Assembly: GCA_026874595.1 (NCBI GenBank)
Contig: CM049308.1
Coordinates: 46,135,327-46,199,326 of the forward strand
Origin: Sipunculus nudus
Lineage: Eukaryota > Annelida > Sipuncula > Golfingiida > Sipunculidae
DNA: 64,000 bases
Direction of reading: 5' to 3'
Made by a program: the position numbers and the translations under genes. Positions 2,167-64,000 of the stretch are shown in pieces; within the stretch, counting starts at the first letter, position 1, and the number at the start of each line of letters is the position of its first letter. Below the pieces are notes generated by a model, which was given only the letters and a program-made list of their open reading frames with translations, did not search any database and was not told the DNA's origin.

Positions 2167-2175
<9 letters not shown>

Positions 2176-2218
<43 letters not shown>
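2176..2218. repeat. (TA)n microsatellite
   Basis: TA run preceded by a short GT run. The right copy is at 49,826-49,870. Confidence 0.95.
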
Positions 2219-2221
<3 letters not shown>

Positions 2222-6746: not shown

Positions 6747-6798
<52 letters not shown>

Positions 6799-22879: not shown

Positions 22880-23176
22880 TCAAAGGACACTGACGGGCAA
22901 AGTGCGTCTTATCCGAACAAATGAAACATCCGGCATCTCGCTGATGTCTCCTGCTCCTTGAAGCTTGTCCTGTCTGACCATCTGTCCTGCCTGCGGTATC
23001 GTTACAGTGTCCGGGGTAGATGTATTACATCGCACCACTGGCGAAACAAGCCCCGAAGGTTTGCGGATACCTCCGACTGCCGCAAGCGACTCAAACTCGA
23101 CTGCCAAGTCGACAGCTGCATCTAGATCTTCTGAGTGCCCAAACTGGACATGTTTGGTAACATCTGGTCCACCCAA
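22880..23176 (-). pseudogene. Gag C-terminal part with zinc knuckle, unit 1
   Basis: A 98-codon frame; in an adjacent frame a CCHC zinc knuckle (CFICSDKTHFARQC, 22,887-22,928) is preserved, followed by a Gln/Pro-rich tail. The frame change inside the nucleocapsid region shows decay. The knuckle would bind element RNA. Confidence 0.7.
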
Positions 23177-23275
23177 CCCAAAGATGAACTAGACAACACA
23201 TAGAGCATCCCTATTCACCTCAGATAACTGATGATGAGCTTTACTAGCCAACCTGCGTAAAGCTGATGAAAATGT

Positions 23276-23869: not shown

Positions 23870-23971
23870 ATCTGTGTACAGACTGGTGTCTCCCTGAAGG
23901 AGTCCGTCAGATGACTCTGCATACCTCTACGAAATATCCGAAAAAGGACTTCGGGGTTGCTGCTCATTCTG

Positions 23972-24484
23972 TCACAGATACGGAGAAAATAACTCTTCCC
24001 CAGAATCAGCACATTTTGCTCGTGCCTGGTCACAGGCAATCTCTGAACGCCTTGGCGGTGTTAAATAACTGGGATCCGGACTGGAGAAAATACCTCCGTC
24101 TCTGGATTCAGCAGCCCTGTCGGGCATTAATCCGAATGAACTGTCCGGCATAGTCTTCTCAATATTATCAATCAAGGCTTCGTATTGTCCCCCATCGCTG
24201 TGCGGGCCCTCCCATCTCACGTTGCGTTCACTTATTGGCCGGTCTGACATGATGTCATCTGTATCTCCTGACAGCACCTCTCTGTACGAATCCTCTAAAT
24301 CAGACTCGTTTTCGTTACTACCTATCGATGGTGGGGGTGAGGTAGGATGAACATTTCGGGGAGAAATGCCTTCATTTCCATCAGTTCTAGGGGCGGATAA
24401 AGCACTAGGAAGCACAGAGACTAAACCCCGCCTAAGTGTCCCAAACAAAGTACTATATGACTCGATGGGTGGTTTGGCTGCCAC
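23972..24484 (-). pseudogene. Gag N-terminal region, unit 1
   Basis: A 170-codon frame, low in complexity, rich in Ser, Pro, Glu and Asp, without a known domain. The frame opens at a GTG codon where an ATG would be expected; a related leader at 21,488 has GTT there. It is assigned to gag by position, upstream of the capsid-like frame. Confidence 0.5.
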
Positions 24485-25298
24485 TAGCCATACATCAGCC
24501 CACCAGACGGAACGATCTCTGGGGGGAGGAGAGTTAAGCAGGGGCCTCGATGTATAATAAAAGACGGAACTACAAATACCAATTTAAATTATTCGGTTTA
24601 TTGAATTTACACAGCAATCAAACATGTAATGGTGATGGTCGGAGCAGCTGTGTCATTAATCAAACATGTAATGTATCACGCCCTGGCTCAGCATTTTATC
24701 TATTTCTTCATTCGCTATCTTGCGCTGAGCCGGAGCCATCCGTCATGGAGGCAACCTGATAGGTCTTGTATCCCCTGTGTCTATCAAGCTTTATCAGATC
24801 CGTCCTCCCTAGCATTCCTCCTGGTACAGCAAAAACATCCGAATACTGTCAAAGCAATTGCATCAGTTGGGTGCGCTCCATAGCAGAAAGTTTATCTGAC
24901 GCATTTTCTAAAAGGCTCTGCATATGTTCTGGTAGACAAGCCGTAGATTCCTTTTTGTCATTTTTCCTTGCATCAATGACACATACCTTGGTAGTTGTGG
25001 ACCCTTATATGGCCTCCACTGTTTGAGCGCTGGCTACCTCTATTCCCCGTTTCAAGGTAACCGCTTCACTATTGAGATTCGTCACTCTTATCGGAACCTC
25101 ATTTGCCACGTCTACCAATGCCCTTGCTATGATTATATGATTATACCTGTATCCTCTGAAAAACATTTAGGTTCTATCATTTTGTTCCCTGTTGTAGCAC
25201 TTCTTTGAAACTCGGAACTGGCTAAATATCCTGTGATTAAAAGCTCCGAATTCGTAGGAATGACCATTTCATCCTTAACACAAACTGCAACATGACCA

Positions 25299-25639
25299 TC
25301 AATCCGAGGTGTATCGGAGCAAAGACGCCCCATGAGTAGACATCTTTAGGCGCCCTGCCACAACATCAATAACTGCTCTAGTGCCTTCTAGAAAGTCTAT
25401 CCCTAGGATGCCGTCCATTTCACACAGATCAGTAACCACTAGATTCCACTTGTAGATTCCAACTTGAACGTGTAGTTCGAACTCGACCTCCCCATATATT
25501 TGCATATCCATCCCCGTAGCTGTGCACAATCGGGTTTTTCCTGGCCGAAGAGTATGGCCACCAGACCAGCTGCACAACTGTTCAAACACATTCCCATTGA
25601 GCAAGCATGGGGTGATCCAGTGTCAACCAGCATTTTCAA
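25299..25639 (-). pseudogene. Retroviral-type aspartic protease, unit 2
   Basis: Identical copy of 22,331-22,671, offset 2,968 bp, with the same DTGS motif and the same internal frame change. Confidence 0.75.
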
Positions 25640-25847
25640 GGACAGATGTCCGATACGGACTGGTTAATAAAAACAACCTTTGTTACTTACATTGAGTTGG
25701 GCAGGTGACCTAATTTCTGATAGTTTGTTCAATTGGCCTGTGTTTCTGGCCGCAAACGCAAGCCATCCTGGTTAAACGCTTCTTCGTCAAGCACTTCTGC
25801 TCTCTCATGCTGCACCGCGCCGGTTTGGGCTGGCTGGTTTCTTTGGT

Positions 25848-26144
25848 TCAAAGGACACTGACGGGCAAAGTGCGTCTTATCCGAACAAATGAAACATCCG
25901 GCATCTCGCTGATGTCTCCTGCTCCTTGAAGCTTGTCCTGTCTGACCATCTGTCCTGCCTGCGGTATCGTTACAGTGTCCGGGGTAGATGTATTACATCG
26001 CACCACTGGCGAAACAAGCCCCGAAGGTTTGCGGATACCTCCGACTGCCGCAAGCGACTCAAACTCGACTGCCAAGTCGACAGCTGCATCTAGATCTTCT
26101 GAGTGCCCAAACTGGACATGTTTGGTAACATCTGGTCCACCCAA
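25848..26144 (-). pseudogene. Gag C-terminal part with zinc knuckle, unit 2
   Basis: Identical copy of 22,880-23,176. The CCHC knuckle is at 25,855-25,896. Confidence 0.7.
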
Positions 26145-26243
26145 CCCAAAGATGAACTAGACAACACATAGAGCATCCCTATTCACCTCAGATAACTGAT
26201 GATGAGCTTTACTAGCCAACCTGCGTAAAGCTGATGAAAATGT

Positions 26244-26837
26244 TTATGGGCTCTCGTCTCTCCGACGTTTCCGATAGCGGAAATCGTTTCTGTAAGAAGG
26301 TCGCCGCTGGGTCGGACAGTAGCAACGTGAAAGGACCGCCTTCAATGCCTCGAAACTTCCGAGTTCCTGTTCCGTCAGCCCTCCCAGGACTGTTTGTGCC
26401 TTACCCCGAAGGCTCATGGCTAGTTGTTGGTCTTTTTCTCTTTCTGACCAGCCATTCCACATCGCCACTGAAAGGAAATGTGACAAGAAGTCCTCCCATT
26501 CCCATACTGTATAATCAAAGAGGTCGGTTGTTTCTCCTCTCTGCTGGCACGTGGGCCCTTCTGCGGGGGCGGCCCACCATATGCAGTTAAACTCATCCGA
26601 GGTCCCTGGTAAGATGGCGGTGGCGCTTCCCTTCCGACCACGTTGCATGTTTTCACTATGCCTTGTATGCCCGAAGACGGGCCTTTGATCTCTCCCGGTC
26701 ATCAGAATATCCGCTTCCTGTGGGTATGGCGTAGAAACATGTGCGAGACGAGGACCGGAAGGAAAACAAACTTGTCTCCTCGTCACCTCTGCTCCAGGAC
26801 ACATCCGAACGAAGAGGCTTCTGGTCGGTTGGCTCAT
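26244..26837 (-). pseudogene. Gag capsid-like domain, unit 2
   Basis: Identical copy of 23,276-23,869. Confidence 0.7.
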
Positions 26838-26939
26838 ATCTGTGTACAGACTGGTGTCTCCCTGAAGGAGTCCGTCAGATGACTCTGCATACCTCTACGA
26901 AATATCCGAAAAAGGACTTCGGGGTTGCTGCTCATTCTG

Positions 26940-27452
26940 TCACAGATACGGAGAAAATAACTCTTCCCCAGAATCAGCACATTTTGCTCGTGCCTGGTCA
27001 CAGGCAATCTCTGAACGCCTTGGCGGTGTTAAATAACTGGGATCCGGACTGGAGAAAATACCTCCGTCTCTGGATTCAGCAGCCCTGTCGGGCATTAATC
27101 CGAATGAACTGTCCGGCATAGTCTTCTCAATATTATCAATCAAGGCTTCGTATTGTCCCCCATCGCTGTGCGGGCCCTCCCATCTCACGTTGCGTTCACT
27201 TATTGGCCGGTCTGACATGATGTCATCTGTATCTCCTGACAGCACCTCTCTGTACGAATCCTCTAAATCAGACTCGTTTTCGTTACTACCTATCGATGGT
27301 GGGGGTGAGGTAGGATGAACATTTCGGGGAGAAATGCCTTCATTTCCATCAGTTCTAGGGGCGGATAAAGCACTAGGAAGCACAGAGACTAAACCCCGCC
27401 TAAGTGTCCCAAACAAAGTACTATATGACTCGATGGGTGGTTTGGCTGCCAC
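26940..27452 (-). pseudogene. Gag N-terminal region, unit 2
   Basis: Identical copy of 23,972-24,484. Confidence 0.5.
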
Positions 27453-27626
27453 TAGCCATACATCAGCCCACCAGACGGAACGATCTCTGGGGGGAGGAGA
27501 GTTAAGCAGGGGCCTCGATGTATAATAAAAGACGGAACTACAAATACCAATTTAAATTATTCGGTTTATTGAATTTACACAGCAATCAAACATGTAATGG
27601 TGATGGTCGGAGCAGCTGTGTCATTA

Positions 27627-46157: not shown

Positions 46158-47932
46158 ATGGCACCCCCTGTCCCCGTGTTGGTTTGGCTGTGTCTTCTGT
46201 GCTACTCCCAAGCTGCACATTCAGGTAATGTCTCAACACTTTTCAACTTTACACCCATAAGACATGGTATTGTTGTCCATGAACAAGGGGAATGTTTCCA
46301 TAAGAAAGGTTCATGGTCACTGTTGGTTTTTTCTCCGCATCGAACCCTACATAGCAACGTCTTGTAAACTCTGTTGACGTTTAATGCTTCCAACCAACGG
46401 GCTAAAACATATCACCGTTCATGTCCTCTCTGGACACGGAAAATCAATAGGCTAATAAAGTATCTGCAAAACCATGACGCCTCACATAGAGAAAAACGAG
46501 GGCTGTTAGATTTTGTGGGGAATTCTCAAAATCCCTATTTGGAATAGCAACACAAAAAGATTTGGAAACTTTCAGAAAGGCATTTAAAAAATTGGCTAAG
46601 TCACAAGAAGACACTATCAGTATCTCTTAGAAAATGGTCACAGCAGCTAATGAGATAACAGTAGTCGCAAATGAGCATTCAAACCAACTTACCCTACTTA
46701 ACAGTACTTTAAATCTCTGGAAAAATACATTAGAATATAACTTAAGGACATTGGCTGGCACTACAAAATTATTACAACATGCTCGGGAAATAGACTTACA
46801 CATTGATTACATGGAGGATATTTTCCAAGAATACCGGCTAGCATGTGAAGTATATAAACTAAAAAGTGCATCTGTTATGCACGGGTATATCTCTCCCGAT
46901 GTTCTCCCCATGAAATACTTAGAACCAGCCCGCAGCAAGATTTCAGCTCTTGGGTTTGGGATACCCCCACCAGGGTGGATATATAAATATGTCAAGACTC
47001 ACCTTGTATTTGCGTTAAATCTAACTTTAAAATATGCTATCAAAATTCATGTTTTCGAGAAAAACCCATACTTATGCTATAACCTCCACTCATGGCCTTT
47101 ACCTATCAAGCCAAATTTTGCTGTCACCTTTAAGATTGTGACCTCAGTCCCAATAAACATGCAGCAACAAATCTTATTCATTCCAAGAAACTGCTCAGGG
47201 TCTAGCCCTTTTCTCTGTAAGGGTACCCCGGTACTCTCAGAATCCCACTACAGGTGTGAAAAGGCAATAATCCATGGCAACCAGGCACTCAGGAAACACT
47301 GCCTGTTCAATGGGTACATTTTAATATTTCTCAGGTTTTCCGGCCATCCCCTCTACACAGTGTTCTTAGCTTTGCCGGAAAACCTTTATCACTGCACTGT
47401 ATGCACGAGCGGCCCTCAAAAGTGGCCCTGCAACCGATAGTTTATTCTATATTCCTTCACCATACATGCTTCTTATTTTACCCTTCATGGCACATTCAAG
47501 GCTTGCTAACAGAAGCTTCGATGATCGATCTTGCCAGTGCTCTCTTTCAATGTCAACCCCCATAAGAAATACAGATGTAATAACATTGAAACACCTGGCT
47601 GCCATCCCAAGCTGGCACAGCTTCAAACATTTATCCCTCATTCCACCTATGTAATCAACGAGTCTCGCATTATTTGACTTCCAGACCCATCTGACTGGTT
47701 TTCCTGGATTTCCATTATGCTCCTTATGATAGCAGGGGCTGTAGGCCTTATCATTCTTTACAAATTTAAACACATACTCCCCACATGCAGCCCAGAGGCC
47801 TGTAGCAAGCAACAACAAGACAATTCAGACAGTATTCTAGATTCCAAGCCACATCAGGACCTTCAGCCACCCCAGTCAGGGAATTTGAACCCAACGTACA
47901 CAACAGCCAGAAACTATGGACGCTTTTCCTGA
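46158..47932 (+). pseudogene. env: env-like fusion glycoprotein, element D (broken)
   Basis: It begins at ATG 46,158 with a signal-peptide-like stretch (hydrophobic residues 5-17). A basic cleavage motif of R-x-K-R type near 46,490-46,500 is followed by a hydrophobic Gly-Leu-Leu-rich start of the kind seen in F-type fusion proteins of errantiviruses. The ectodomain continues in the frame 46,634-47,440 with many Cys residues. The membrane span and cytoplasmic tail lie at 47,690-47,932. Stops and frame changes near 46,365, 46,545, 46,630 and 47,440 break it into at least four pieces, so no full product can be made. Family assignment is by architecture only. Confidence 0.68.
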
Positions 47933-48064
47933 ATACTTTTTCCAAAGTTAGTTAAGGCTTATGGCGCCACGGAATGTACTGAAAATATAAGCTTAACATC
48001 CTATGGATCTAAGGTGCACTAAAGGACTGTAAGCACAAACTCTAACGGCAAATAACCGCTTTTC

Positions 48065-48112
<48 letters not shown>

Positions 48113-48134
48113 AGGTATAGGTGTGTGTTGTATA

Positions 48135-48167
<33 letters not shown>

Positions 48168-48939
48168 ATGCGTATATCTATATGTGTATATAAATATATA
48201 TACTTGATTTATCACTGTGCATGTTGTATACCATGATTTTATGTCACTTATATATTATTAATTATCAATTAAAGGTTACCTCCCTAAACTCCCACAACAC
48301 TTATCAGACTGCTACTCCCTTTTTTCCTACTAGTACTGTGTAGGGAGAGAACACTCCCTGCCCGCTGTTGAAGCACTGGAAAAACCTACCTCCCCCTCCT
48401 CACTTGGGAGTTTGGGTTGGGTAGCTTGCAGCCTTTACACAGACTATGGGGCCCTGTAAAAAAACAACTCCAGATGGTGATGTACTAGGACTGTGACCAG
48501 AAAAAATTGTAGCATCCCACTCTACATGATGCTTAACCTTTGCTCTTACTGACCTCCTGTTGACCAGGGGCGAGGCATCCTGATGACTGACAGTCACCAG
48601 TTATGCCCTGACCAATCACCAGGCAGTGGGTACTTTACCCTGTCTCCCGCAGATAACATACAACTAGGCATCACTGACTGATTCGCTCTCTTTAGACCTG
48701 AGCATCAAGAAGAGTCGGTTCGTGCAGTGCACACCATCTTCGCTCGACCGGTGCAGTCCTAGGTATGTGTACTTATTATCTTAGATAACTTAGCAGTCAC
48801 CATAAAGCAGTCTTGATAATGTGTGAGTGTAGTCTCTGTATATATAACCAATACAAACTTGTTGTGGTTCTTTCAAATTTCCCTAAGTGGTATCACCCAA
48901 TACATCTACATTCCCAAATTACAGTATTTTAAGAAAATA
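47933..48939. other. Gene-free sequence downstream of env, right copy
   Basis: Counterpart of 297-1,299; contains TA/TG repeats at 48,068-48,190 and no supported gene. Confidence 0.5.
48068..48190. repeat. (TA)n / (TG)n microsatellite
   Basis: Right-copy counterpart of 432-540, with different repeat numbers. Confidence 0.95.
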
Positions 48940-49285
48940 CTACAGTATAACAACAGTACAACAGCAAATCAATACAATTACACAGTATAATAAATAAAGT
49001 GTACAGTACCTGCATACCACCACTGTCACGGCGACAAAAATTCCTTAAAAATGTATAATCAAGATGAACAGTTCACATAAATCTTCCCAGAGAATAACAG
49101 TCCAGTTCAATCACAAAATCAATTTGTTGTACTCCAAAAGTGAAGTTCTGATAGTGATCCCAAAGGCAAACCGAAGACTAATTAAAATCCGTTACAAATT
49201 CAAAGAAGTTCTGTAACTGCTGCAGTTATCGGAAAGGCCCACAACTGACTCGCACTCTTCCGTGTACGCTGGAACATTTCTCTTT
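48940..49285 (-). repeat. LTR fragment of the Gmr1-like family, right copy
   Basis: Counterpart of 1,300-1,645, offset about 47,640, similar to 35,293-35,620. Confidence 0.7.
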
Positions 49286-49816
49286 CAGGCTTCAAAATAG
49301 GTCTGATAGGATGAAAAAAGGTTGCGCCGGCTGAAAATGGCATACGGACCCTATGCATGGAGTCCCATTGGGTCCGCTTCTGCTGCTTATGAGGAATGCA
49401 TATTTCTATTTCTTTCTTTAGAAACAGTTTCCTTGCAACGTACATTTAATTAATCTTTCATGTTTTCCTCATATCAATCTATTCTTTATACGTCCAACGA
49501 TAGAATCCATGCTGTCAAATATCATCGAAAACCTGAATGCTCCTGCGTCTCATTCCGGTTCGCAATGTAAACATCATCACTGACCAGGTCTTCAAGGTAA
49601 ACAAGTACTGGGGTATGAATTTCTTGCCATGAGCAGAGCGCCACAAAATAAATGTAAACAACATTTGTACATGTCTTATTGAGACAGACACCAATTGAAA
49701 ACCTATATTTTCTTTTAACTTTTAGAATAAAAAAAAGAGCCAACATTACATATCTCCTTTATATATCTCCCCAACCCCGGTGAAAAGCCCGGTATAATGG
49801 GTTTATCATGCAGCTA

Positions 49817-49825
<9 letters not shown>

Positions 49826-49870
<45 letters not shown>
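49826..49870. repeat. (TA)n microsatellite
   Basis: Counterpart of 2,176-2,218. Confidence 0.95.
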
Positions 49871-49873
<3 letters not shown>

Positions 49874-49998
49874 AATTAATGGTATAGCCGTGTTAGTCTG
49901 TAGTCCAAGTATAGGTAGATAGAAAGAGTGACGCCTTTCAGATAGACTTATAACACGTTTAAGTAAATAAACAAGTTGGTCTAAAAGGCGTCGATCTT
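49871..49998 (-). mobile_element. Possible Penelope-like 3' terminal remnant, right copy
   Basis: Counterpart of 2,219-2,345, with the same AGACTAACACGGCTA string on the minus strand. Confidence 0.3.
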
Positions 49999-51239
49999 AT
50001 ATATATAATATATAAATATATTAACATGGCGAAAAGCAGGATAAGACAAACCATGAATTAAGTAATTGTTAACAATATAGAAGACTATGAACAACACATG
50101 CTTCGAGTCACTTGTAGGACTGATACAATAAAATGCAATTTTGTCCTGTAAATATATAGTAAAAGTTAAAAGAAAATGTTTAACTATGTGTTCATTGTAA
50201 GAGTTTAAAATGCAATCAAAAGGTGACCGTTGCAACATAAAAGGGCATAACTTTAAAATACATCAACATGAACAAATTGCATTAATAAAAGTATATATTA
50301 CTGTACATTACAATGTTTTTTTTAGCAATGACGAAGAGGAAGAAAATGAGCCATGGTTTGTGAAGAAAGGACCAATATTGACAAAGTTATGATCGAAATA
50401 AGATTTTGACGTGTTTGATGACCTATACCTTAAAATTCGACCTATTAAAAATACACATACAGCTTCATGAAATCGTCCCGATATACGATATTGGTTAATA
50501 CATAGTAATACCTGCAAAACTTTGGCATGTAGAATGCTAAATATAAGACAAAAGAACAATTAGCCAGAAGGCGAAATTGAGGACAACTGTGGCTGTAGAA
50601 TGCTAATTGATCGCTAATTGAGATGATCGTAAACATTATTTGATATTTGTGATCAAAACATACACGGTTTTAATATATCTGAAAACAAAATAAGTAATAT
50701 GTTTTAGGGAGACAAGCCCTATGTATACATATAATTCAGAATAATCTTTAAAAACCTGCAAATAATAATAAGATCATACATTCTTCTCATGTTTAACAAA
50801 CGATTCATGTTTATCTCATCAGGAAGACCTAAAAAGTGTTACGTATAAAATGCGATCTCTCGAAACGAAAATACTCACATTCAAAGAAATAATGATATTC
50901 ATCTCCAATGACATCCAGACTACATATCTCGCATTATCTTTCATCATAAAAATCCCTGGGAGACGTCCTGTCGTCACTGTTAAATGGTTGTTTCCAGCTC
51001 TAAATTCGCACACTAATTGACAGAATCCAGTCGGCAAAATAGTTAAGTGTGGTTAAAAAATATTTCTTTTAAAAATATGTATGCTCTACCTATTTGTGCC
51101 TCTGAGACAAGTTTATGCCATCTTTGTTGATACTGGTCGTGGAGTTTTAGTCGAAAACACAGGTATATACCACCTAGGGTTCATAACTTGCTGGCAAGAC
51201 CATATGTTAAATAACCCCATAAATGCGGGGAACTGTCGG

Positions 51240-52540
51240 TTTTTCAGACTAATCTATGGGATTCTTTGCTACCATTGCGCATGGTCCAGCACAACGCGGC
51301 ACATCTTGCTACTTTTATGTGCTGAACGGCTATTCAGCGAAAAGTGCGCGGTAGCAAATAGCTGTCGCACAGTAGCATATGCTACCCTTGCGCATAGCTT
51401 GCCACATCGCGCAATTAGCTGCCACTGGACTTGCTACCATAAGACAGAGACCGGCTCATACGCATAAAGTGCGCGGTAGCAAATCATAACTGCGCGGTAG
51501 CAAATGGCTGTCTTTGCTACCCATGTGGCCTATGCACAGACCGCCTCATATGTGCAAAGTACGCGGTAGCAAATCAGACCTGCGCGCTAGCAGGTGGCTG
51601 TCATTGCTATCATGGCGGCTATGGTCGCAAAATCTGCTTCTATTGACGTAGTACAAGTCTTTGCTGCCAGAGGTCGCTCGGACAGGACCACTCAAAGCGA
51701 CATGCGCGGTAGCAATTAATTGTCGCAAAGTAGCAAACAGATCTGCTCAGTAGCAAAGGCCATGGGTCATATAAAGCTGCAATCGTAATGCGCAATGTGC
51801 GCGGCAAACAGACCTGCGCGGTAGCAAGTTGCTGTCAGCTCCTATGCATGGGGACTATGTCTTTGCGATCGCAAAATCTGCTACTGTTAACGTAGTGCAA
51901 GTCTTTGCTGTCAGAGGTCGCTCGGACACGACAACTCAAAGCAATATGCGCGGTAGCAATTAACTGTTGCAAAGAGCAAACAGATCTGCGCGGTAGCAAA
52001 TGCTACGGGTCATATTCAGCTGCGATCGCAATGCGCAATGAGCGCGGTCGCCAGTTGCTGTTACCTGCTACCTTGGGGACTATGAATTTGCATTCGCAAA
52101 ATCTGCTATTGTTGACGTAGTGCAATTCTTTGCTGCCAGAGGTCGCTCGATAAGACCTCACAGACCAATATGCGCCGTAGCAATTAACTGTCGCAAAGCA
52201 GCAAACAGTCTAGATTTGCGCGGTAGCAAGTGCCATGGACCATATTATGCTGCGATTGCAATGCGCAATGTGCGCGGTAGCAAATCAGATCTTCGCGGTA
52301 TCGAGAACCCCGTGGAGGCTATCTATTGCGATCGAAACTTTTACTGGTATCGTTTCAGTGCAAGTCTCTGTAGCCATAGGTCGCCCGGATAGGCCTGCGA
52401 CAAACTTTGCATTAGGCGTGTAAGGAATTAGTAGTCGAAGAGTAACACATTGACCTGCGCAGTAGCAGGTGTAATGGGCCATATTAACTAACGACAGCAA
52501 AGCGCGGTAGCAAAACACACCTGCGAGATAGCAAGTGCTT
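51240..52540. repeat. GC-rich tandem field on GCGCGGTAGCAA, right copy
   Basis: Counterpart of 3,850-5,150. Units differ by point changes and small indels; for example the phrase GGGGACTATG is present at 51,849 but missing from the left counterpart. Confidence 0.75.
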
Positions 52541-53262
52541 GTGACTTACTAATCATAGCCATAATTCTGGAATAATATATGCTTCATTTCATTCAGGTTT
52601 TTTTTTCAAATAATCACTAATGATATATTAACATTTAATTTAAAAACACTTGTTCCAAACCTTTGTCGCCCTTCTCTTACAAAATCTGCATGGTTTGAAC
52701 ATATTTATATAAACAGGATTACAAAGTAGCCATTGGCTAATAGACAGGCTATCCTGTAAACATTTAAAACACATGTTAACAATGACGGTAACAACATATA
52801 TACATTTAAGCATAAGTTGACATTTAAGCATAAGGTGATATATAAGCACGTAATTCAATATATACAACATAATATAGGCGACAAATAATCTTACAGAATG
52901 ACCTAACATAAACAGACGTGAAAACAATATATGCAGTATAACCGTTAACTATATACTGCATTAGTAGCGGGTTCATATGGAGCCCCTAAAGTGACAAACG
53001 TAATATTTTTTTCTGGGTAAATATCGCGTTCCCTCGCGACCATTTTGTAAAATGTGAGAAGTATTTGGAAATCTCTCCTCAAGGAGAGTTGAGGCCAATG
53101 CAGCTCATCGTACATTTTGTTTGAGCTTGTTGTGATAAAAACGCCGGTGCTGATACTTTCTGGATGCTTTCTAATTTTTTACTTTGTTTCGCTGTGCAGC
53201 TGTTAAATACTTGTGACCTGTATTCTAAAACCGGAAGAACCATTGATTTGTACACCCGTAAG

Positions 53263-54107
53263 CAGGGGCGTAGCTAGGATTGAGGGAGGGAAGGGGGCCA
53301 TGATCAATGGCGGATCCCGAAATTCGAAAACGGGGGGTGGGGGGGGGGGGTAGGGGCGCTAATATGCATGTAATGGTACTATGAAAACTGTTATATATAC
53401 AAGTATATATATGTATATGTATATGTAAAATATATTTTTTTGTTTATTTTCAATTATGAACCATCCTTTCATTATGGTTAGTTACAGGTACATGGGGAGG
53501 GTATGTGAAGGGGTATCCCCCTCCCATATTGGGAAATTTTTTAATATACAATGTTAAAAGGACATTTTGAAGCAATTTTTAAAATGTCTTTGCGTTATGT
53601 AGTCAAACTGTAGAGAAGTTCAATATTTATTATTTATATTTCTTCAAAATTAGGATATAATATTTCAGTCGTTTTCAAACAAGTCAATGGCACAAAGGCG
53701 CAATAACTGATAAGTTGAAATCTTATGGTAAACTTTGCATTTTACCGGGTTCCGTGGTCTCGACAGCACACAGGACTCCTCAGAGCACAGATCGCGAGGT
53801 CGAGTACCGGTATCACCAGAGGAGCCGTAAGATTGTTCCCGGTCGACCCCAACCAGGGCCTGGTGCTCGATCGATCTGCAGTTGTTCTGCAGCTGTTCAT
53901 AAATATCCTAATACTCAACTAACAAATTTGTAAGAAATAAACTGCAGATAACTTAAATAAAGTCTAATTCCGTATTAATAATACGAAATATGAAAAACGA
54001 AAATTAATCACGAAAATAGGGAATTAGATAAAATGAGAGATATTGCAGCTCAACGGGGGCAGCGCGCCGAAGGCGCCCCCTCTGGATCCTCGATTGATAG
54101 CAAAGGC

Positions 54108-54172
<65 letters not shown>

Positions 54173-54279
54173 TATTAGATTAAGTGAAATTCAGAAAAGG
54201 ACGGCGAGTACTGGATGCGACCGGGGGTGGCATGGCCCCCTGCGCCCCCACCCCCCCCCCCCCCTTGGCTACGCCCCTG
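53263..54279. mobile_element. Non-autonomous inverted-repeat DNA transposon, right copy
   Basis: Same ends CAGGGGCGTAGC and GCTACGCCCCTG and the same flanking CGTAAG repeat (53,257-53,262 and 54,280-54,285) as 5,859-6,906, with a longer internal (TA)n run at 54,110-54,169. Confidence 0.8.
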
Positions 54280-54509
54280 CGTAAGTATTTTCATAGACAT
54301 CTTGAAAATAATATATAATAAAATGGTAATTTTTTTTGGAAGCTGTAAGACATAAATTATTTATATGTTCGGATCATGACAAGTTTTTAGAAAGTCTCCC
54401 CGACGTGTTTTTCGCTGGTAAGTCGGTCAGTTTGACGTCATCAAAATGCAGCAGTGGATGAGTATTGTACGATCTTTTACTTGAAAAAACATATAACTTT
54501 AGTTTTTGT

Positions 54510-55420
54510 TAAACCATTTACTGGAGTTTTTCATGTCCCAAGGCTTAGGGTCACCCGTATCCAGGATATACCATATATCAATAGTGACAGACACTTACTG
54601 GAGTTTACACTAACTGGTATTTTTCAGGTCTTGGATATATCATATATTTATAGTGACAAATACTTACTGCAGTATTTCATGTCCAAAGGGTTAAGGTAAC
54701 TTGTATTATGGATATAGCATATATCGATAGTGACAACACTTACCGGAGTATTTCATGTCCTAAGGGTTAGGGTAACCCGTTTCCCAGATATAGCATATAT
54801 TAATAGTTACCATCACTTACCTCTAGTCTTTCATGCTCGAACGGTAAAGGTAGCCCGTATCCCGGATAAAGCATATGTTTAAAGTGACTAACACTTACTG
54901 GAGTATTTCATGCTCGAAGAGTAAAGGTAACCCGTATCCTGGATATAGCATATATTAATAATAGTAAACACTTACTGAAGAATTTCATGTCTAAGTGTTA
55001 AGGTATTCGTATACCGAACATAGCAAATACTAATAGTGACAAACACTTACAGATGTATTTCATGCGCGATGTATTTCATGCCCGAGGGGATACAGTAACC
55101 CGTATCCTCGATATAGCATATAGTAATAGTGACAAACATTTACTGAAGTATTTCATGTCGGAAGGCTTAGGGTCGTCCGTATCCAGGATATACCATATAT
55201 TAATAGTGAAAACTATTATTGGAGTATTTCATGCCCGAAGGGTTACGGTAACCCGTGTCCCGGATATACAATATATTAATATTGACAAATATTTATTGGA
55301 GTATTTCATGTCAGAAGGTTTAGGGAACTCGTTTCCGTGATATACCATATATTAATAGTGACAAATATTTATTGGAGTATTTCATGTCAGAAGGTTTAGG
55401 GAACTCGTATCCGTGATACC
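54510..55420. repeat. 76-bp satellite, short right copy
   Basis: About twelve units, nearly all of the diverged type; only about two to three units of the homogenised variant occur at the end (55,300-55,420). The array then stops abruptly at unrelated sequence. Confidence 0.9.
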
Positions 55421-55499: not shown

Positions 55500-55833
55500 C
55501 ATTGAAACATTAACTGTAACTGTTTAAAATTGGAAAATACAAAAGTAATCAATGTAATCATATCTTATTGTCATGATTATGATTACATTTGGAGAGTAAT
55601 TGATTACAATTACAATAACTTTCTTTTTAAAATGAATATAATTGATTACAATTACGATTACTTTAAAAAATGTAATTTGTTACAATTACTGATTACGATT
55701 ATCCAATGTCTGCCTCTCACCCATATCTATACACATGTAATGCTTGATAAAGATCTGTGACATATTTTTTTTAGTTATCTAGCTCTCAAGTTTTTTCTTC
55801 ACCGGTGGAAATTAATTGTTTGAATAATAAACA
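55500..55833. repeat. GATTACAATTA-rich stretch
   Basis: Within 55,540-55,705 the strings GTAATC, GATTACAATTAC and their reverse complements recur about ten times in both orientations. Such clustered subterminal motifs are common in hAT-type non-autonomous elements, but no ends were found. Confidence 0.4.
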
Positions 55834-56350
55834 TACTTATTAAGGGTCCCATAATAAAGGGCTCATGTGCGTCTGTATCTAAGGGGCTTTATTATACTCT
55901 GGCATTGTCCAATAATTAGTGACTTAATCTTTTAACTAATAAGATTGTCATACTTAATAATCAACATACTTAGGGTCCAAGAATTAAGGGCTTTTGTATG
56001 TCTGCATGTATAAAAGAGGCTTTATTATACCATGGTATTGTCTAATAATTAGGGGCTTAATCTAATGACAAGTAGGACTATCATACATACTTAGGGTCCA
56101 AGAATTAAGGGATTTTGTATGTCTGCATGTTTAAAGGGGCTTTATTATACTGTGGTATTGTCTAATAATTATGGGCTGAATCTAATAACAAGTAGGACCA
56201 TCAAACTGGATAATCAACATACACGGGGTCCAAGAATTAAGGGCCTTTGTGCATTTGTATCTAAAGGGCTTTATTATACCCTGGCACTGTCCAATAATTA
56301 GGGGCTTAATCTAATATAAAGTAAGACAATCATACTGAATGATCAACATA
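55834..56350. repeat. About 120-135-bp tandem repeat, four units
   Basis: Units start with CTTAGGGTCCAAGAATTAAGGG (or a variant) at about 55,838, 55,968, 56,091 and 56,222. Each contains GGGCTTTATTATAC and TCTAATAATTAGGGGCTTAATCT-like phrases. Confidence 0.8.
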
Positions 56351-56404
56351 ATATTACATTGGCGGCGAAACTAAATTTTCATTGGGGGGGGGCCCAATAG
56401 TAGA

Positions 56405-58847: not shown

Positions 58848-59180
58848 CTATGTTATGAAATTCTTAAGGAGGAATTTGTTCGCATGTCTACAGGCGGTGA
58901 CAAGTTCGTTCCGTTTATTCAGGGTGGCCAAATGGGGGTTCCAAATGATATAGTATTTTTTCCATAAGCATAGGTTACATCTGTTGGTAGCGCTGTTATA
59001 AGCCTTTGCCTGTTTCAGTATTTTCCATGTGATACTGTAGTCTACACCTTTGTCTTTCAACTGCCATATATATTTGCTAAGTTCTGTGTTAAATTTCTTA
59101 GATTTGTTCATGAAGGATGATTTGTGATTTGCATAGCGTGACTTGAATGAATTTTCTGTTAATCCTAAGTAGTTATATTA
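58848..59180 (-). pseudogene. Penelope-like element, GIY-YIG endonuclease domain (5' truncated)
   Basis: The minus-strand frame is open from just after a stop at about 59,180 to the stop at 58,848. It begins YNYLGLTENSFKSRYANHKSSF, the second half of a GIY-YIG nuclease domain, with its Arg and the following N-H-K-S. It continues with NTELSKYIWQLKD, YSITWKIL, the Cys pair CNLC and the end CRHANKFLL, the typical C-terminus of Penelope-like proteins. The RT domain and the first half of the nuclease are missing. The stop codon is probably the natural one, as the frame ends at the family's usual end. Confidence 0.82.
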
Positions 59181-59216
59181 TAGTTGAATGAGGAGCAAAA
59201 AAATGCAGGGAAACCG

Positions 59217-59375
59217 ACCAAGGTCAAGGGCAAGGTCACAGAGTACGAACAGGTGGTAAGTCACCAGAGGGTATATAGAGGGAGCCTGCCCAAGGTCAAG
59301 GTCGGGGGTCATAGGGTACGAACAGGTGGTGAGTCACGAGGGGGTTATAAAGAGAGAGCCCGCCCAAGGTCAAGG
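59217..59375 (+). promoter_or_regulatory. 73-bp tandem repeat with AGGTCA half-sites and TATA-like boxes
   Basis: Two units of 73 bp. AGGTCA occurs at 59,221, 59,233, 59,293 and 59,367, with AGGTCG at 59,299 and GGGTCA at 59,306; several are preceded by TCA or CA, giving extended half-sites of the nuclear-receptor type. Each unit has a TATA-like box (TATATAG at 59,272, TTATAAAG at 59,344) about 30 bp after GTACGAACAGGTGGT. This looks like a duplicated enhancer-promoter module at the left edge of the virus-like gene block. Function is inferred. Confidence 0.45.
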
Positions 59376-59783
59376 CCGTGCCCTAGATGGGATTGCATCA
59401 CGCAGTGTGGTCCGTATATGGGTCACACTGTCCAAGCAGGCCCTGAGGTGTGTGTGTGTGTGTGTCGAGGGTGATGTGCGTGTGTGGAAGGTGGAATTAA
59501 AATGATGGGTAGAGTTAGAAAAGCATGGGATCATGAAAAGGCTTGCTTACCTAGTGACAGAGATATGTGTTAATGATTCCAGATGGCAAAGCTATTAAGG
59601 TCAGACACTGTCTATGTAAGCAAAGTCGATATATGGGTCGGGGTGAGAAACTGGGACGGCATTGCTGATGGAGATTCAAGCGGGATGCTTGGGTGAGTGG
59701 TAAACTCATTAACTCCCAGCGATTTGTTTTTGTGGCTTGGAGTCCAAAGTCCAAAGTCAGGACCGGTTGTGTGTAGTAAATAA

Positions 59784-59839
<56 letters not shown>

Positions 59840-60003
59840 CAGTATTTAGCTGAGGGAAGCTTCATGGTGGCATCCGTGTGTGAACCGAGTAATGGACTTA
59901 CCTTTACCACTATTGGTGATCGTGACATGCATCTGGTCATTTCTGCTACCGTGACGTTGGTTGTGTGAATTGCTTGAGCATACGATCAACGTAAAATAAC
60001 AAT
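59376..60003. other. Leader region of the virus-like block
   Basis: It contains a (TA)n tract at 59,789-59,834 whose end forms TATAAAA (59,831-59,837). About 33 bp downstream, at 59,864, is a possible start TTCATGG. A 34-codon ORF (59,864-59,968) precedes the first larger gene and could be an upstream ORF. No other gene was recognised. Confidence 0.4.
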
Positions 60004-60654
60004 ATGTGTTTTGAAGAGGACGAGGTGTACCGGCCCTGTTCTGGGCGGAACCCTTTAGTTCCACTGAACTTGGCTCGGTGTGAACAATGTGAGTTACCGT
60101 TGTATGTTACTTGTCGGGGCCATTGTTGCGACTGTACGTGTCGTTCTGTGGACCTGGGTCCCATCAAGAACCCCTCGTGTGAAAAGTGCGGGTCACCCAA
60201 AGTGGCGCGATGTAAATGTCATTGTTGCACTTGCGCTCGTAAGAGTTATGATTTTGTGGGAAAATTCGAGGCTGACGAGGCGGCCTGGGCTGCTGGTGTT
60301 ATAACAGAGAGGGAACTCGACTGTCGCCCAGAAGGTCTGAGTCAGCTGGATGAAGATTTACTGTTGATGACCCCACCCAGCAGCCCGAAACGTCAGTCTC
60401 CTGCTACTACCCTTCCGCTACCCTTACGGATTCGTTTACCCTCACCTGTGAAGGAAGTCGGTGAGCTGACTCCGACACCATCGCCACCATTACCACCGAC
60501 GAACCCCGTGCCCGTGGTTGAAAGGTCACGGCGCAGGCGTAAACGAGGGGGTCGGAATCACAGGAGGCAGCGCGAGAACGCTATAAAAGCGATACGTGAA
60601 ACTGCCGGTGCAGCATATCATCAGCGGTTATGCTTCCGGCAACACCTAACATGA
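60004..60654 (+). CDS. Cys-rich, basic-tailed small protein with duplicated zinc-type module
   Basis: 216 codons from ATG 60,004 (context AACAATATG). Two matching Cys modules: Cys26, Cys29, Cys37, His40-Cys41-Cys42, Cys44, Cys46; and Cys59, Cys62, Cys70, Cys72, His73-Cys74-Cys75, Cys77. Both keep CxxC, seven residues, Cys and a HCCxC end, so one arose by duplication and each probably binds metal. An acidic-hydrophobic patch (QLDEDLLLMTPPSSP) is followed by a Pro/Ser-Pro-rich linker and a strongly basic segment (RSRRRRKRGGRNHRRQR), a likely nuclear or nucleic-acid-binding tail. No known family recognised. First gene of the block; a regulatory role is only a guess from position. Its stop overlaps the next start as ATGA. 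Confidence 0.72.
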   Translation: MCFEEDEVYRPCSGRNPLVPLNLARCEQCELPLYVTCRGHCCDCTCRSVDLGPIKNPSCEKCGSPKVARCKCHCCTCARKSYDFVGKFEADEAAWAAGVITERELDCRPEGLSQLDEDLLLMTPPSSPKRQSPATTLPLPLRIRLPSPVKEVGELTPTPSPPLPPTNPVPVVERSRRRRKRGGRNHRRQRENAIKAIRETAGAAYHQRLCFRQHLT

Positions 60655-61076
60655 ATCAGTATAACCACGAAATGCTTCCCCTACCCCCTCCGCCTACGTC
60701 TATACCTATGGAGAACATGAGAAGGGGTGGTTATTCGAAAGGGTTCAACATGGGTCCTACATTTTGTGTCGCTGGTAGCGACGCCGGGATGAAGAACCAC
60801 GACGAGTCACGGCAGGTGCGCACTGACTGCGGTGTTTTCACGTGCAGGTGTTGTCAAGGGAAAGGTGTGGTAGCTAGGAAGCCTGGCCCCCCACCAGCCG
60901 TGCAGAACGCGAACCGTGAGTACACGGGTAGTGTGTCCACGTTCGAGGCCAGGCCAGGTGACCGACCTGCTACACCCGCCGCGCTTGAGCTGTTCAGTGG
61001 TTTAGGCAGTGGAATCAACACAGGTGGGGAAATGTTTAAGCGTGATGATGTGGGCAAGCACACGCATCTGTTTTGA
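60651..61076 (+). CDS. Small Pro/Cys-containing protein, start overlaps previous stop
   Basis: The frame has ATGs at 60,630 and 60,651. The second overlaps the upstream TGA as ATGA and gives 141 residues; I prefer it, but 60,630 (148 residues) is possible. The N-terminus is Pro-rich (LPLPPPPTSIP). The middle contains CGVFTCRCCQGKG, a Cys cluster reminiscent of the modules of the previous gene. The C-terminal third has LELFSGLGSGIN. No membrane span or known domain. The stop/start overlap suggests translation coupling or at least very tight packing. Not recognised as a known family. Confidence 0.65.
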   Translation: MNQYNHEMLPLPPPPTSIPMENMRRGGYSKGFNMGPTFCVAGSDAGMKNHDESRQVRTDCGVFTCRCCQGKGVVARKPGPPPAVQNANREYTGSVSTFEARPGDRPATPAALELFSGLGSGINTGGEMFKRDDVGKHTHLF

Positions 61077-61083
61077 GAGCGGG

Positions 61084-61119
61084 TATATAAAGAGACGCTG
61101 CGTGTGCGTCGCTTCAGTT
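61084..61119 (+). promoter_or_regulatory. TATA box and initiator
   Basis: TATATAAA at 61,084-61,091 and the initiator TCAGTT at 61,114-61,119; the A at 61,116 is 32 bp after the TATA start, the textbook Pol II spacing. It lies 8 bp after the stop of the preceding gene and 32 bp before the next ATG. Confidence 0.75.
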
Positions 61120-61147
61120 GTATCGTTTTGTGACCAGTGCTACAGAC

Positions 61148-61369
61148 ATGTCCAGTACCTTCCTGGCCGTTGCAGACGGATTGATATTTTTGGCCGTGGC
61201 GCCTCTCTACCTCCCTTTGTTGGGGTGTCTGATCCTTAAAGATAAGATTCAGAGCGGTAGTTTCACGTGGGATAAAGTGAAACGAAAGCTGGGATTTTTC
61301 CGCTGTTGCTGTCGTGTTCCCCAGGAAGATGTGAGAGATGCAGGTGGCAGGGAACCGGGAGCATTATAA
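61148..61369 (+). CDS. One-span membrane peptide
   Basis: 73 codons from ATG 61,148, the first ATG after the predicted transcription start at 61,116. Residues 4-27 form one hydrophobic span (VADGLIFLAVAPLYLPLLG). A Lys/Arg-rich stretch (KVKRKLGFF) and a CCCR cluster next to it could be acylated, then a polar tail. The positive side after the span suggests a cytoplasmic C-terminus. It has its own TATA/initiator and an AATAAA signal downstream, so it looks like a separate mRNA. Small membrane peptides are common in DNA viruses, but no family is recognised. Confidence 0.68.
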   Translation: MSSTFLAVADGLIFLAVAPLYLPLLGCLILKDKIQSGSFTWDKVKRKLGFFRCCCRVPQEDVRDAGGREPGAL

Positions 61370-61495
61370 AAAAACTGTGTTGGCAATTGACAAGCGTGTA
61401 TTCAAACACGCACTGTTTGGCTATTGTTGTGGCTATTTTGTTTTAATTATACCATCTCCCCTCCACATAATGAATACTCTGCCTGTTGATTATAC

Positions 61496-61501
61496 AATAA
61501 A
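61496..61501 (+). terminator. Polyadenylation signal AATAAA
   Basis: Canonical hexamer 126 bp after the stop of the membrane peptide gene and followed by T/GT-rich sequence (TTTTCTTGTTTTGTCGTG), as expected for a cleavage site. The same stretch (ACAATAAAAGG) could alternatively serve as a TATA-like element for the next gene. Confidence 0.6.
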
Positions 61502-61563
61502 AGGGTAAAATGTTATTTTCTTGTTTTGTCGTGTTTTTGGTGTGTAGCAATTGCAAAGTGCAC

Positions 61564-61770
61564 ATGGCGAAACGCAAGAGAAAGGCAAGCAAGGGTGTGA
61601 GAAAGCAAACCAAAGGTTTGAGAAAGACGCAAAAGGGAGGTATATTACCCTTTTTACCCTTACTGTTAGCTGCCGCGCCTGCCATCGGGAAAGCTGTCGC
61701 GTTGGGGGCTGCCGGTGGGGCCACGTCTTACGGCGACACCAAAGCTTTACAGGCTGCGGTGGGGCGGTAG
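61564..61770 (+). CDS. pX/mu-like basic-hydrophobic core peptide
   Basis: The frame is open from ATG 61,510, but the start at 61,564 (MAKRKRKASKGVRK) gives a sensible 68-residue protein and avoids an N-terminal extension that overlaps the polyadenylation region. Residues 3-23 are strongly basic. Residues 24-56 are a Gly-Gly-Ile start followed by a Leu/Pro/Ala/Gly-rich hydrophobic segment (GGILPFLPLLLAAAPAIGKA). This basic tract plus GG-hydrophobic design is that of the small DNA-binding core protein X (mu) of adenoviruses and of similar small ORFs in Polinton/adintovirus-type elements. A splice-acceptor-like TTTTTGGTGTGTAG ends about 16 nt before the ATG. Assignment is by composition and motif order. 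Confidence 0.65.
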   Translation: MAKRKRKASKGVRKQTKGLRKTQKGGILPFLPLLLAAAPAIGKAVALGAAGGATSYGDTKALQAAVGR

Positions 61771-61828
61771 ACGGACAATTTGAGTTCCCAAATGTATATA
61801 TTCTCATTAGATACTCTCTAAAGCAAAA

Positions 61829-62077
61829 ATGTTGTCACGTGAATCTGAAACAGAAACGACCAGTCAGGCCAGCTTTGCACAGCAGATGAACCGGCGTTCG
61901 TTTGCGATGTTTTGCTGTACAATTTTCGTGATCGCCTTTGTCGTGGTAGCGTCAGTGGTGAACTTGTCTTTAAACGGTATTGAGGGCGAAGGTCGCGATA
62001 TCTGGATATCGTTGCTGTTTACGTGTTTGGGCGTATTGTTCCCGACACCTAAGATCCGTAAAGACCGAAAGCCGTAA
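61829..62077 (+). CDS. Two-span membrane peptide
   Basis: 82 codons from ATG 61,829. A polar Ser/Thr/Glu N-terminus is followed by a hydrophobic span at residues 25-48 (FAMFCCTIFVIAFVVVASVV), a short acidic loop (GIEGEGRD), a second shorter span at 58-71 and a basic end (PKIRKDRKP). It overlaps the next gene: stop TAA 62,075-62,077 and start ATG 62,077-62,079 share one base (TAATG). Pyrimidine-rich AG acceptor-like sites (CTCATTAG, CTCTCTAAAG) lie just before the ATG. Family unknown; membrane location predicted by hydrophobicity only. Confidence 0.68.
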   Translation: MLSRESETETTSQASFAQQMNRRSFAMFCCTIFVIAFVVVASVVNLSLNGIEGEGRDIWISLLFTCLGVLFPTPKIRKDRKP

Positions 62078-62991
62078 TGCTCTCTGTGGAAGGGGAGGAG
62101 GACGAGCACCTCCTGGTCATGCCTTCTGACGCCGATAAAGAACAGCACCCAAACAACACAGCAGCAGAATTTAAAGTCAGTCTGAGGCAACCCATCCATT
62201 TACATTCGGAGAAAAGATGGGAGATCGCATTGGTGAAACTGTACGTTCCGAGGCAGGTGCCACAGCCTATCATCCCGATAACCTTCGACATCTTTTACCT
62301 CTGGGAACTGCCAGAAGGTGCCCTAACCAGCCCTAAATCGAGCACCCATTCTTTCGAGGTGACAGGACGGCAAAGCATGATCACGGATTTGACGAGGTAT
62401 TTTGACATGGCCGCCAAGTCAGGTCTCCATTCCGATGCCGTCGAATACATGAAGAACAACACCGTTTCTAACGTGCCCCAAGGGTTGAACATGGAGCGCG
62501 TGGGTACAAACCAACTGCGGATCCGATGGGTGTTAGCCGGCAAGTTCGTGGATGTCACATGTTACCGTATCCCGCCCATCATTATTGATTTCGGAGAAGT
62601 GTTCCCGAAGCTGGTGTCTCTGCCACAGAGACGGGTGGAGCTGGCTCAGTTTATGGGCCCCGAGAAATTGTTGACGGGTGGGTCTTCGTATTATTTTAAA
62701 TTACGTATCATAACGGGAGGTGATGTGATAAGTACCTATTTCCAAGCATTCGAGAGTAGGCAAGAGGAGAAGACGTTTTATCTTCCCAAACAAACGACTG
62801 CTGGTTTCGGTGCTATGTTTAACATGATCATGAAAGATGTGTACACCCATCCTGAGAAGTACGGGTTTGCTCCTGTCATGAAAGGGCGTACGGAAGCCCG
62901 TTACACACAGGGTGAAGACTGGGTGCAGATGAGGGTGGGCTGTTCGTTTCAGAAGGTGGGGATTTCAAACATTTCCACTTACCGTCATTAA
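62077..62991 (+). CDS. 304-aa structural-protein candidate of the virus-like block
   Basis: 304 intact codons from the ATG in TAATG. The N-terminus has LLVMPSDADKEQHPNNTAAEF, then FKVSLRQPIHLH and KRWEIALVKLYVP. This pattern (short beta-type opening, P.N..A.F.V.L..PI.L....WE.AL) occurs, as I recall, in uncharacterised ORFs of repeat or virus-like elements of many invertebrates. Later parts are beta-rich with no membrane span. The ORF at 63,292 shares general features, so two related surface or minor capsid proteins are possible. No named domain can be assigned. Codon use is more GC-rich than nearby retroelement ORFs. Confidence 0.7.
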   Translation: MLSVEGEEDEHLLVMPSDADKEQHPNNTAAEFKVSLRQPIHLHSEKRWEIALVKLYVPRQVPQPIIPITFDIFYLWELPEGALTSPKSSTHSFEVTGRQSMITDLTRYFDMAAKSGLHSDAVEYMKNNTVSNVPQGLNMERVGTNQLRIRWVLAGKFVDVTCYRIPPIIIDFGEVFPKLVSLPQRRVELAQFMGPEKLLTGGSSYYFKLRIITGGDVISTYFQAFESRQEEKTFYLPKQTTAGFGAMFNMIMKDVYTHPEKYGFAPVMKGRTEARYTQGEDWVQMRVGCSFQKVGISNISTYRH

Positions 62992-63072
62992 GAGACCACT
63001 TCTTATTCAAGATTGCGATTTATCTTCAGCCACGCCCTGGCTTCAGCGTTAAGGTTGCACCCTGACCCGGGG

Positions 63073-63273
63073 ATGGAAGTGGAATGGGACTTCCGGGAGA
63101 AGCAGTCATTGGCGAAGTCGGCTTGGGACAAGGGCGGTGACAGGATTTACGACGTGCCCCACAGTATTTCCAGTGAATACATTAAGAGGTCAGAGTACTC
63201 TCAGACCAAGTCGAAAGCAAGCAACGGGAATTTAAAATATTTTTTCGACTGGGAGGCGGATTATTTCATATAG
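63073..63273 (+). CDS. Small 66-aa protein
   Basis: The frame from ATG 63,073 encodes a charged, aromatic-rich protein (MEVEWDFREKQ, KGGDRIYDVPH, FFDWEADYF). It is in the same frame as the 304-aa gene and open from its stop codon (62,989-62,991) onward. A TTG-initiated or spliced N-terminal extension from about 63,013 is therefore possible; acceptor-like TTATCTTCAG lies at 63,020-63,029. Not recognised. It ends 18 bp before the next ATG. Confidence 0.5.
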   Translation: MEVEWDFREKQSLAKSAWDKGGDRIYDVPHSISSEYIKRSEYSQTKSKASNGNLKYFFDWEADYFI

Positions 63274-63291
63274 ACACACAGGTTAGAGGGG

Positions 63292-64000
63292 ATGGAGCCG
63301 AAGGGCAAGAAAACCACCGACTACATCCGCATGGACGCTGAAAGATATCAGCTCACCGGGACGTTGTTCAGTCGCGATATCCCCAAGTTTGAAACTGACG
63401 ATCAGGTGTGGGTAAAAGTGAAGATGGAGGACACGTTGCAAGAAGGGCACGACGTGATCCGAGCTCTAGAGCGGCGGGACGAGATCCCTTCCTCTGGCGT
63501 GAGTGCTTCTGACGTGGTGGACGTGCCCGTGTTAGTGCCCGAATACCGCCCCTTGACGGCTGGCAAACGGAAACTGGACCAGGTGTCAATCCGGTTGGAG
63601 GATGAGTACGGGAAGAAGTTACGGTTCACTGACGGGGGGTTTTCAGGCGTGAGTTTGCATTTGAAGACGGTCCCTCTCCTGTCCCCAGAGCACATACACC
63701 TTTTAGTACCTTGCGACGTCCTGTACACTTTGCCTCACCTTAAGGACATTTACATCCAGAACAAGTACGTGGCGGGTATTACCAGTTTAAAACTGCCCAG
63801 GACGTACGTGAACGTGAAGGAGAAGGAATATGTCGTCACCGTGAAAAGGAAGAAAGCGGGCGAGGAGGATCAGATCTTGACGGAATATTGGTTGCCAGAA
63901 GGGCAATACCTGAACGAAAGTTTAGTGCAAGCCGTGAGCGTCGCGGTGGACCAGATGGGCGAGGAAGGGTTTTGTACGGGGATGCCATGCACACCCAGGT
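63292..64000 (+). CDS. Large ORF, truncated by the window end
   Basis: At least 236 codons from ATG 63,292 (context AGGGGATGG, favourable), open to the last base. Begins MEPKGKKTTDYIRMDAERYQ. It is charged, without membrane spans, with beta-type alternation. Near the visible end, EYWLPEGQYLNESLVQAV resembles the recurring L.P.G.Y.....L...V phrase I associate with the same group of uncharacterised element proteins as the 304-aa neighbour. A structural role (capsid- or surface-associated) is inference. Not a pseudogene as far as visible. Confidence 0.62.
   Translation, partial: MEPKGKKTTDYIRMDAERYQLTGTLFSRDIPKFETDDQVWVKVKMEDTLQEGHDVIRALERRDEIPSSGVSASDVVDVPVLVPEYRPLTAGKRKLDQVSIRLEDEYGKKLRFTDGGFSGVSLHLKTVPLLSPEHIHLLVPCDVLYTLPHLKDIYIQNKYVAGITSLKLPRTYVNVKEKEYVVTVKRKKAGEEDQILTEYWLPEGQYLNESLVQAVSVAVDQMGEEGFCTGMPCTPR

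Follow-up and report, generated by a model that had tools for sequence, protein, structure and literature searches.

The window analysed here is a 64,000-nucleotide stretch of the Sipunculus nudus genome (C3:46135327-46199326; 1.43 Gb in 153 contigs), and near its right edge lies a block of open reading frames (ORFs) that almost certainly belongs to an endogenous Polinton/Maverick (class Polintoviricetes), of which it forms the left end and some of the capsid module. The GC content is 0.33-0.34 at 54-58 kb and rises to 0.51 beyond 60 kb, and from 60004 eight ORFs follow one another on the same strand. Five are given in Table 1, and the others run from 62077 to 62991, from 63073 to 63273 (ATG start; a TTG start lies at 63013) and from 63292 onward. 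An earlier sequence-only reading had described an intact, virus-like block of eight tightly packed genes. We found the single 194-bp gap (61369 to 61564) and the two overlaps (60630/60654 and 62077/62077) as it had described them. When ATG-initiated ORFs of at least 60 amino acids (aa) on the plus strand of 60001-64000 were compared with 200 dinucleotide shuffles, they covered 92% of the sequence, against 18% on average and at most 54% in the shuffles, which rules out chance ORFs. All eight ORFs are present; as a count of genes eight is too many, three of the ORFs being most likely one broken gene.

We then continued reading past position 64,000. Within about 17 kb past the window we found all five genes that the sequence-only reading had named as a check, those for the major capsid protein (MCP), an FtsK-type ATPase, an adenain-type protease, a family-B DNA polymerase (PolB) and an integrase. 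The plus strand carries, in order, the end of the ORF that starts at 63,292, three ORFs (171, 204 and 114 aa), two tandem MCP-like genes, the protease and a 235-aa ORF. The minus strand has a 233-aa ORF (between the protease and the 235-aa ORF), a 238-aa ORF and others, and a 296-aa Cys-rich ORF, followed by the integrase, two unknown ORFs, the ATPase and PolB. PolB is of the viral/organellar type B (PF03175, 37.2 bits against a cut-off of 25.8) and has the motifs DxxSLYP, Kx6YG and DTDS; a frame change separates the N-terminal from the main part of its gene, which is thereby broken. The integrase is of the rve type (PF00665, 35.0 against 32.6) with D-65-D-34-E spacing, and the packaging ATPase (PF04665, Pox_A32, 31.1 against 22.8) has the Walker A motif GPSQSGKS. 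For the cysteine protease, a seven-member family profile matched an adenovirus protease in the PDB at E 2.7e-4, and the single sequence matched the same entry at E 0.16. Both tandem double-jelly-roll MCP genes are broken in the window copy. No PDB match was obtained for PolB alone at E 0.01 or for the MCP profile at E 1, and scans of viral contigs with the 481-aa MCP, PolB and the integrase revealed no relative. We take the MCP to resemble 'F54H12.2-like' animal proteins, a term not found in our literature listing.

The ends of the element were recognized by comparison with two sister copies on C9, one on the minus strand (50770151-50795479) and one on the plus strand (50737930-50756230). Similarity to both places the left edge at 59,168 and not at 59,217, as had been claimed, and all three copies share the left start AGTAGTTATAT. 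Within the left terminal repeat a 73-bp unit is repeated in tandem (59214-59375), and this array holds two TATA-like boxes. In both C9 copies the AGTAGT terminus is also found inverted at the far end, where the inverted repeat matches bases 1-90 at 90-91% and bases 36-306 at 79-80% identity, and TACGGT stands on either side of each copy as a 6-bp target duplication. The expected terminal inverted repeats and 5-6-bp duplication are thus present in the two sister copies (6 bp) but not at the right end of the window copy, which is lost together with the right partner of any target duplication there. The similarity to the C9 copies ends at L010:9012 (C3:46216511), beside the PolB start, and a satellite of about 120 bp begins at L010:9017, right at the truncation point. 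What remains of the window copy extends over about 22.0 kb (C3:46194494-46216511), and a complete element is ruled out. When the whole genome was searched at the DNA level with the leftmost 593 bp, scoring only the best candidates and skipping simple repeats, at least eight matches were obtained, comprising the left end of each of the three copies and fragments of the right end of both C9 copies.

Several further observations concern these ends. The same satellite flanks the element on both sides in direct orientation (window 55821-56353 and L010:9017-9299). A minus-strand ORF at 58851-59177, which looks to us like a retroelement GIY-YIG domain (Pfam gave no match at E 0.1), extends up to the left edge, and therefore the Polinton may have inserted into that ORF. 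The C9 copies lie about 14 kb apart in opposite orientation with the same TACGGT duplication; their left flank is common (92% over 1.9 kb, repeated sequence) and their right flank is different. In both, the right terminal repeat is interrupted by an insertion of 2-3 kb (L013:4152-6784 and L015:1032-4231).

The remaining genes of the C9 minus copy stand in the same order as in the window copy. It has a single MCP gene, keeps only residues 122-197 of the protease, has a shortened integrase and ATPase and little of the 238-aa ORF, and is without a match to the 296-aa ORF; it runs about 7.7 kb past the PolB start to its right end. In the C9 plus copy, which was covered by four pieces that overlap, nothing matched the integrase, ATPase or protease. 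With genes lost in each, the C9 copies were ruled out as complete references, and the window copy is therefore the fullest of the three, though truncated. It is not intact, as had been supposed: both MCP genes and the polymerase are disrupted, the gene at 62077 has two in-frame stops, and the right end is gone. The window copy is a defective provirus, a fossil that is ordinary in kind.

To collect relatives we searched the genome with the 304-aa ORF (62077-62991), which gave 21 matches in 15 places; besides the window and both C9 copies there were 12 others. The sequence of all 12 further loci was retrieved; the piece for L026 stops short of the expected MCP position. MCP and protease are each present at 11 of the 12, as is the 404-aa ORF that starts at 63292 (at the twelfth, L028, by blastp only), and the 82-aa ORF is present at 10 with 41-75% identity, compared with 94% in both C9 copies. 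Genome-wide, at least 139 matches were obtained with the integrase (scored: 136 of 1922 candidates) and at least 102 with the 481-aa MCP (scored: 89 of 320); fragments and distant relatives are among them, and the totals should not be read as numbers of elements. The integrase lies opposite to the capsid-block strand in seven places (the window, the C9 minus copy, and C2:67.46, C9:69.10, C11:50.51, C8:27.35 and C13:44.68 Mb) and on that strand in five (C3:34.57, C5:32.10, C6:72.90, C15:53.99 and C16:32.65 Mb); among the integrase matches listed, none is near the C9 plus copy, C10:62.42 or C5:66.36 Mb.

Four of the loci (L027, L029, L030 and L031) represent a second Polinton lineage with the same order of capsid-module genes and homologous integrase, MCP and protease. 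It differs from the window element in that its integrase lies upstream on the capsid-gene strand, whereas that of the window element is on the polymerase strand, and in that one ORF of 716-731 aa replaces three window ORFs at three of the four loci, being shorter in L031. The 481-aa MCP of L030 has at least eight stop-free matches at 99-100% identity, its own place included, so that this group moved recently. Stop-free MCP matches at 100% identity at distant sites (C2:3.37, C7:12.32, C8:64.90, C9:65.23, C3:34.63 and C15:53.98 Mb) mark this second, recently multiplied group, whose presence in the same genome makes comparisons possible. At C3:44381592-44407875 we also observed seven MCP-like matches on one strand, in steps of about 4.26 kb and each in a 284-aa frame; this is a tandem array containing part of a capsid gene.

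The relatives also bear on the large gene at 62077-64506. In the window copy it consists of three ORFs in one frame, 62077-62991 (304 aa), 63013-63273 and 63292 to C3:46199832 (404 aa). Both stop junctions are open in both C9 copies, which carry stops elsewhere. A single ORF of 716-731 aa matches the 304-aa and 404-aa ORFs at 3 of the 12 other loci (L027, L029 and L030); in L022 one ORF covers the second and third pieces, and in L025 one covers the last part of the first piece together with most of the third. Because of the shared frame, the open sister junctions and the single ORFs elsewhere, we take the three ORFs to be, most likely, a single gene that two in-frame stops interrupt. The N-terminal domain of its product shows homology to the family of the 171-aa protein (hhalign probability 97.6), and there is weak recurrence of a C-terminal motif (probability 21.1, E 0.001; tblastn E of about 2e-4 at two loci). 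As the gene lies near the MCP and carries a repeated domain, its product may act at the vertex or surface of the capsid, which we regard as just short of an even call. The repeated-domain family stands beside the MCP wherever both are readable, making it a candidate for an unrecognized vertex protein. Structural searches added little. A model of the 304-aa ORF built without an alignment had a mean pLDDT of 45.7 and was unusable. The PDB profile search with the 171-aa family gave 30 entries at E 5 or better that we judged not credible, mostly short WD40-like stretches that failed alone, together with one passing stretch in Crov588 and with integrin and S100 entries. A search of a phage collection gave a single chance match at E 3.

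Table 1. Features at the left end of the Polinton and in its capsid module (window positions)
Feature	Position	Strand	Remarks
Possible left half of 6-bp target duplication	59162..59167	.	ATCCTA; right partner gone with right end
Left terminal repeat, begins AGTAGT	59168..59473	+	Similarity to both C9 copies begins at 59168
216-aa Cys-rich basic protein	60004..60654	+	18 Cys, net +10
148-aa protein	60630..61076	+	Overlaps 216-aa ORF
73-aa peptide, one hydrophobic segment	61148..61369	+	Hydropathy 2.51; own TATA box at 61084, AATAAA at 61496
68-aa basic-hydrophobic peptide	61564..61770	+	Net +14; adenovirus pX-like by appearance only
82-aa membrane protein	61829..62077	+	Hydropathy 2.81; present at most loci examined
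Capsid-module gene, most likely single, two in-frame stops	62077..64000, on to 64506	+	Same frame; sister junctions open

The smaller ORFs are conserved to different degrees. In C9 copy L012 the first 158 aa of the 216-aa ORF are matched at 86% identity, and the C9 plus copy has no match to this ORF; it matches no family in Pfam, PHROGs or NCBIfam, and its product may have a zinc-binding or early role. The 148-aa ORF shows 93% aa identity in L012 and 79% over residues 62-148 in L014. The proposed self-contained unit of TATA box, ORF and AATAAA is present around the 73-aa peptide, and its TATA-like box and AATAAA are found in both C9 copies as well, where the peptide has 81-86% identity and a frame broken between two halves. 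Hydropathy also fits the proposal of small membrane peptides for the ORFs at 61148 and 61829. The peptide at 61564 is basic and hydrophobic, as had been noted, while its likeness to pX is one of appearance; it has no Pfam family above cut-off, has 70% identity over 47 aa at L022 (C2:67.45 Mb) and is matched in the C9 copies by end pieces only.

We next computed dN/dS against the C9 minus and plus copies (values in that order). The ratios were 0.18 and 0.13 for the 148-aa ORF, 0.27 and 0.40 for the 204-aa ORF, 0.45 and 0.38 for the 404-aa ORF, 0.37 and 0.87 for the 82-aa ORF, 0.65 and 0.70 for the 304-aa ORF, 0.72 and 0.91 for the 171-aa ORF, 0.84 and 0.96 for the 114-aa ORF, and 1.41 and 1.00 for the middle ORF; the 216-aa ORF gave 1.01 (minus copy only), with no sign of constraint. 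Constraint is clear for three genes and visible in one of the two comparisons for the 82-aa ORF, and none is visible otherwise, which is expectable because decayed copies were compared.

The assignment to a Polinton has to be weighed against several results. None of the window ORFs matched a named family above cut-off in Pfam and further libraries, and the 304-aa and 63,292 ORFs had no relative among 5.8 billion proteins (at E 0.001 and at E 10) or in IMG/VR. No gene for a single-jelly-roll penton was identified. The model of the MCP fold is that of a relative and not of the broken window copy, the full gene set is absent from both C9 copies, no right inverted repeat of the window copy was found in the genome search with the left end or the C9 comparison, and dN/dS is near 1 for several ORFs. 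All these speak against the assignment. The lack of family matches in the window, where capsid-type genes stand alone, and of relatives outside this genome for two of its ORFs would suit an undescribed dsDNA virus lineage other than Polintons. Five Polinton hallmark genes and Maverick-type ends, in the element or its sister copies, make that very improbable, and the suggestion of an undescribed lineage holds at the level of a lineage and not of a separate kind. Ratios near 1 and the narrow distribution of several ORFs could also be read as ordinary host genes or a host-domesticated cluster, host use of single Polinton genes being possible. We find this scarcely credible: homologs exist in multiple copies, in synteny at 12 other loci, the sister copies are bounded by inverted repeats, the reading is intron-free and broken by stops and frame changes, and no host gene was recognized inside the element. 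The proposal of an integrated dsDNA virus or transposon continuing past 64,000 is thus well supported by the genes downstream and the Maverick-type ends of the sister copies.

A narrower filing of the same element, as an adintovirus in the strict sense, is compatible with the gene set, with the duplicate hexon ORFs mentioned for some adintoviruses in PMC11071296, and with the second match of the MCP model in a viral library, 'Penton capsid protein [Adintovirus sp.]' (12% identity, at fold level only). The top match was a bracovirus-labelled protein with 23% identity, and we found no sequence-level link to a named adintovirus. In Pfam, the N-terminal PolB piece matches zinc-finger-type models only, no OTU model is among the matches of the two PolB pieces, and the integrase has no chromodomain model at E 0.1 or better, although a divergent one could escape. 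Neither the missing link nor these PolB and integrase results are decisive, and we regard this filing as unlikely.

For the Polinton, we infer by analogy that virions form and what each window ORF does. The rve integrase would insert the linear viral DNA and make 6-bp target duplications, and PolB would copy the element genome. The plus-strand module would build the capsid, with double-jelly-roll MCP from two tandem genes and the adenain-type protease serving in capsid maturation. The A32-type ATPase would package the DNA. The small membrane and basic peptides and the repeated-domain protein from 62077 may contribute to the capsid module. Going further, we tentatively propose, as a possible but doubtful extension, a Polinton lineage with two different tandem-encoded double-jelly-roll capsid proteins, a new vertex or surface family of a repeated unnamed domain (62077-64506 and the 171-aa gene), and an integrase moved to the polymerase strand. 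If true, the hexon shell of these Polintons would consist of two proteins and their vertex would differ from the known penton.

Elsewhere in the window we observed two further duplications. An exact (100%) head-to-tail duplication of 2,969 bp (21690-24658 and 24658-27626), in retroelement-like sequence, is either very recent or an assembly artefact. About 8 kb are duplicated 47.6 kb apart at 96-99% identity (1-8052 and 47637-55412), either as a segmental duplication or as two copies of one element.

Adintoviruses, according to PMC11071296, share the set of hexon, adenain, packaging ATPase, PolB and integrase with the window element, to which no sequence-level match was found among them. Compared with Mavericks/Polintons, as described in PMC8097293 and PMC4028283, the element has the same PolB, rve integrase, A32/FtsK-type ATPase, adenain-type protease and double-jelly-roll MCP, and likewise two gene modules on opposite strands and decayed copies. 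Vertebrate Mavericks have (AGT)2//(ACT)2 end motifs and 6-bp duplications (PMC8097293), and the C9 copies agree with them in the (AGT)2 terminus and the 6-bp target duplications. Unlike the elements described there, the window element has two tandem MCP genes, no recognized penton and, upstream of the MCP, a large repeated-domain gene without a recognized relative; its integrase is on the polymerase strand, whereas PMC8097293 places it with the capsid module. Reading the continuation and the sister copies thus allowed a compact stretch of unannotated ORFs, with no hallmark gene in view, to be assigned, and the known range of Polinton architectures gains a lineage in which the MCP genes are duplicated and the integrase is placed differently.

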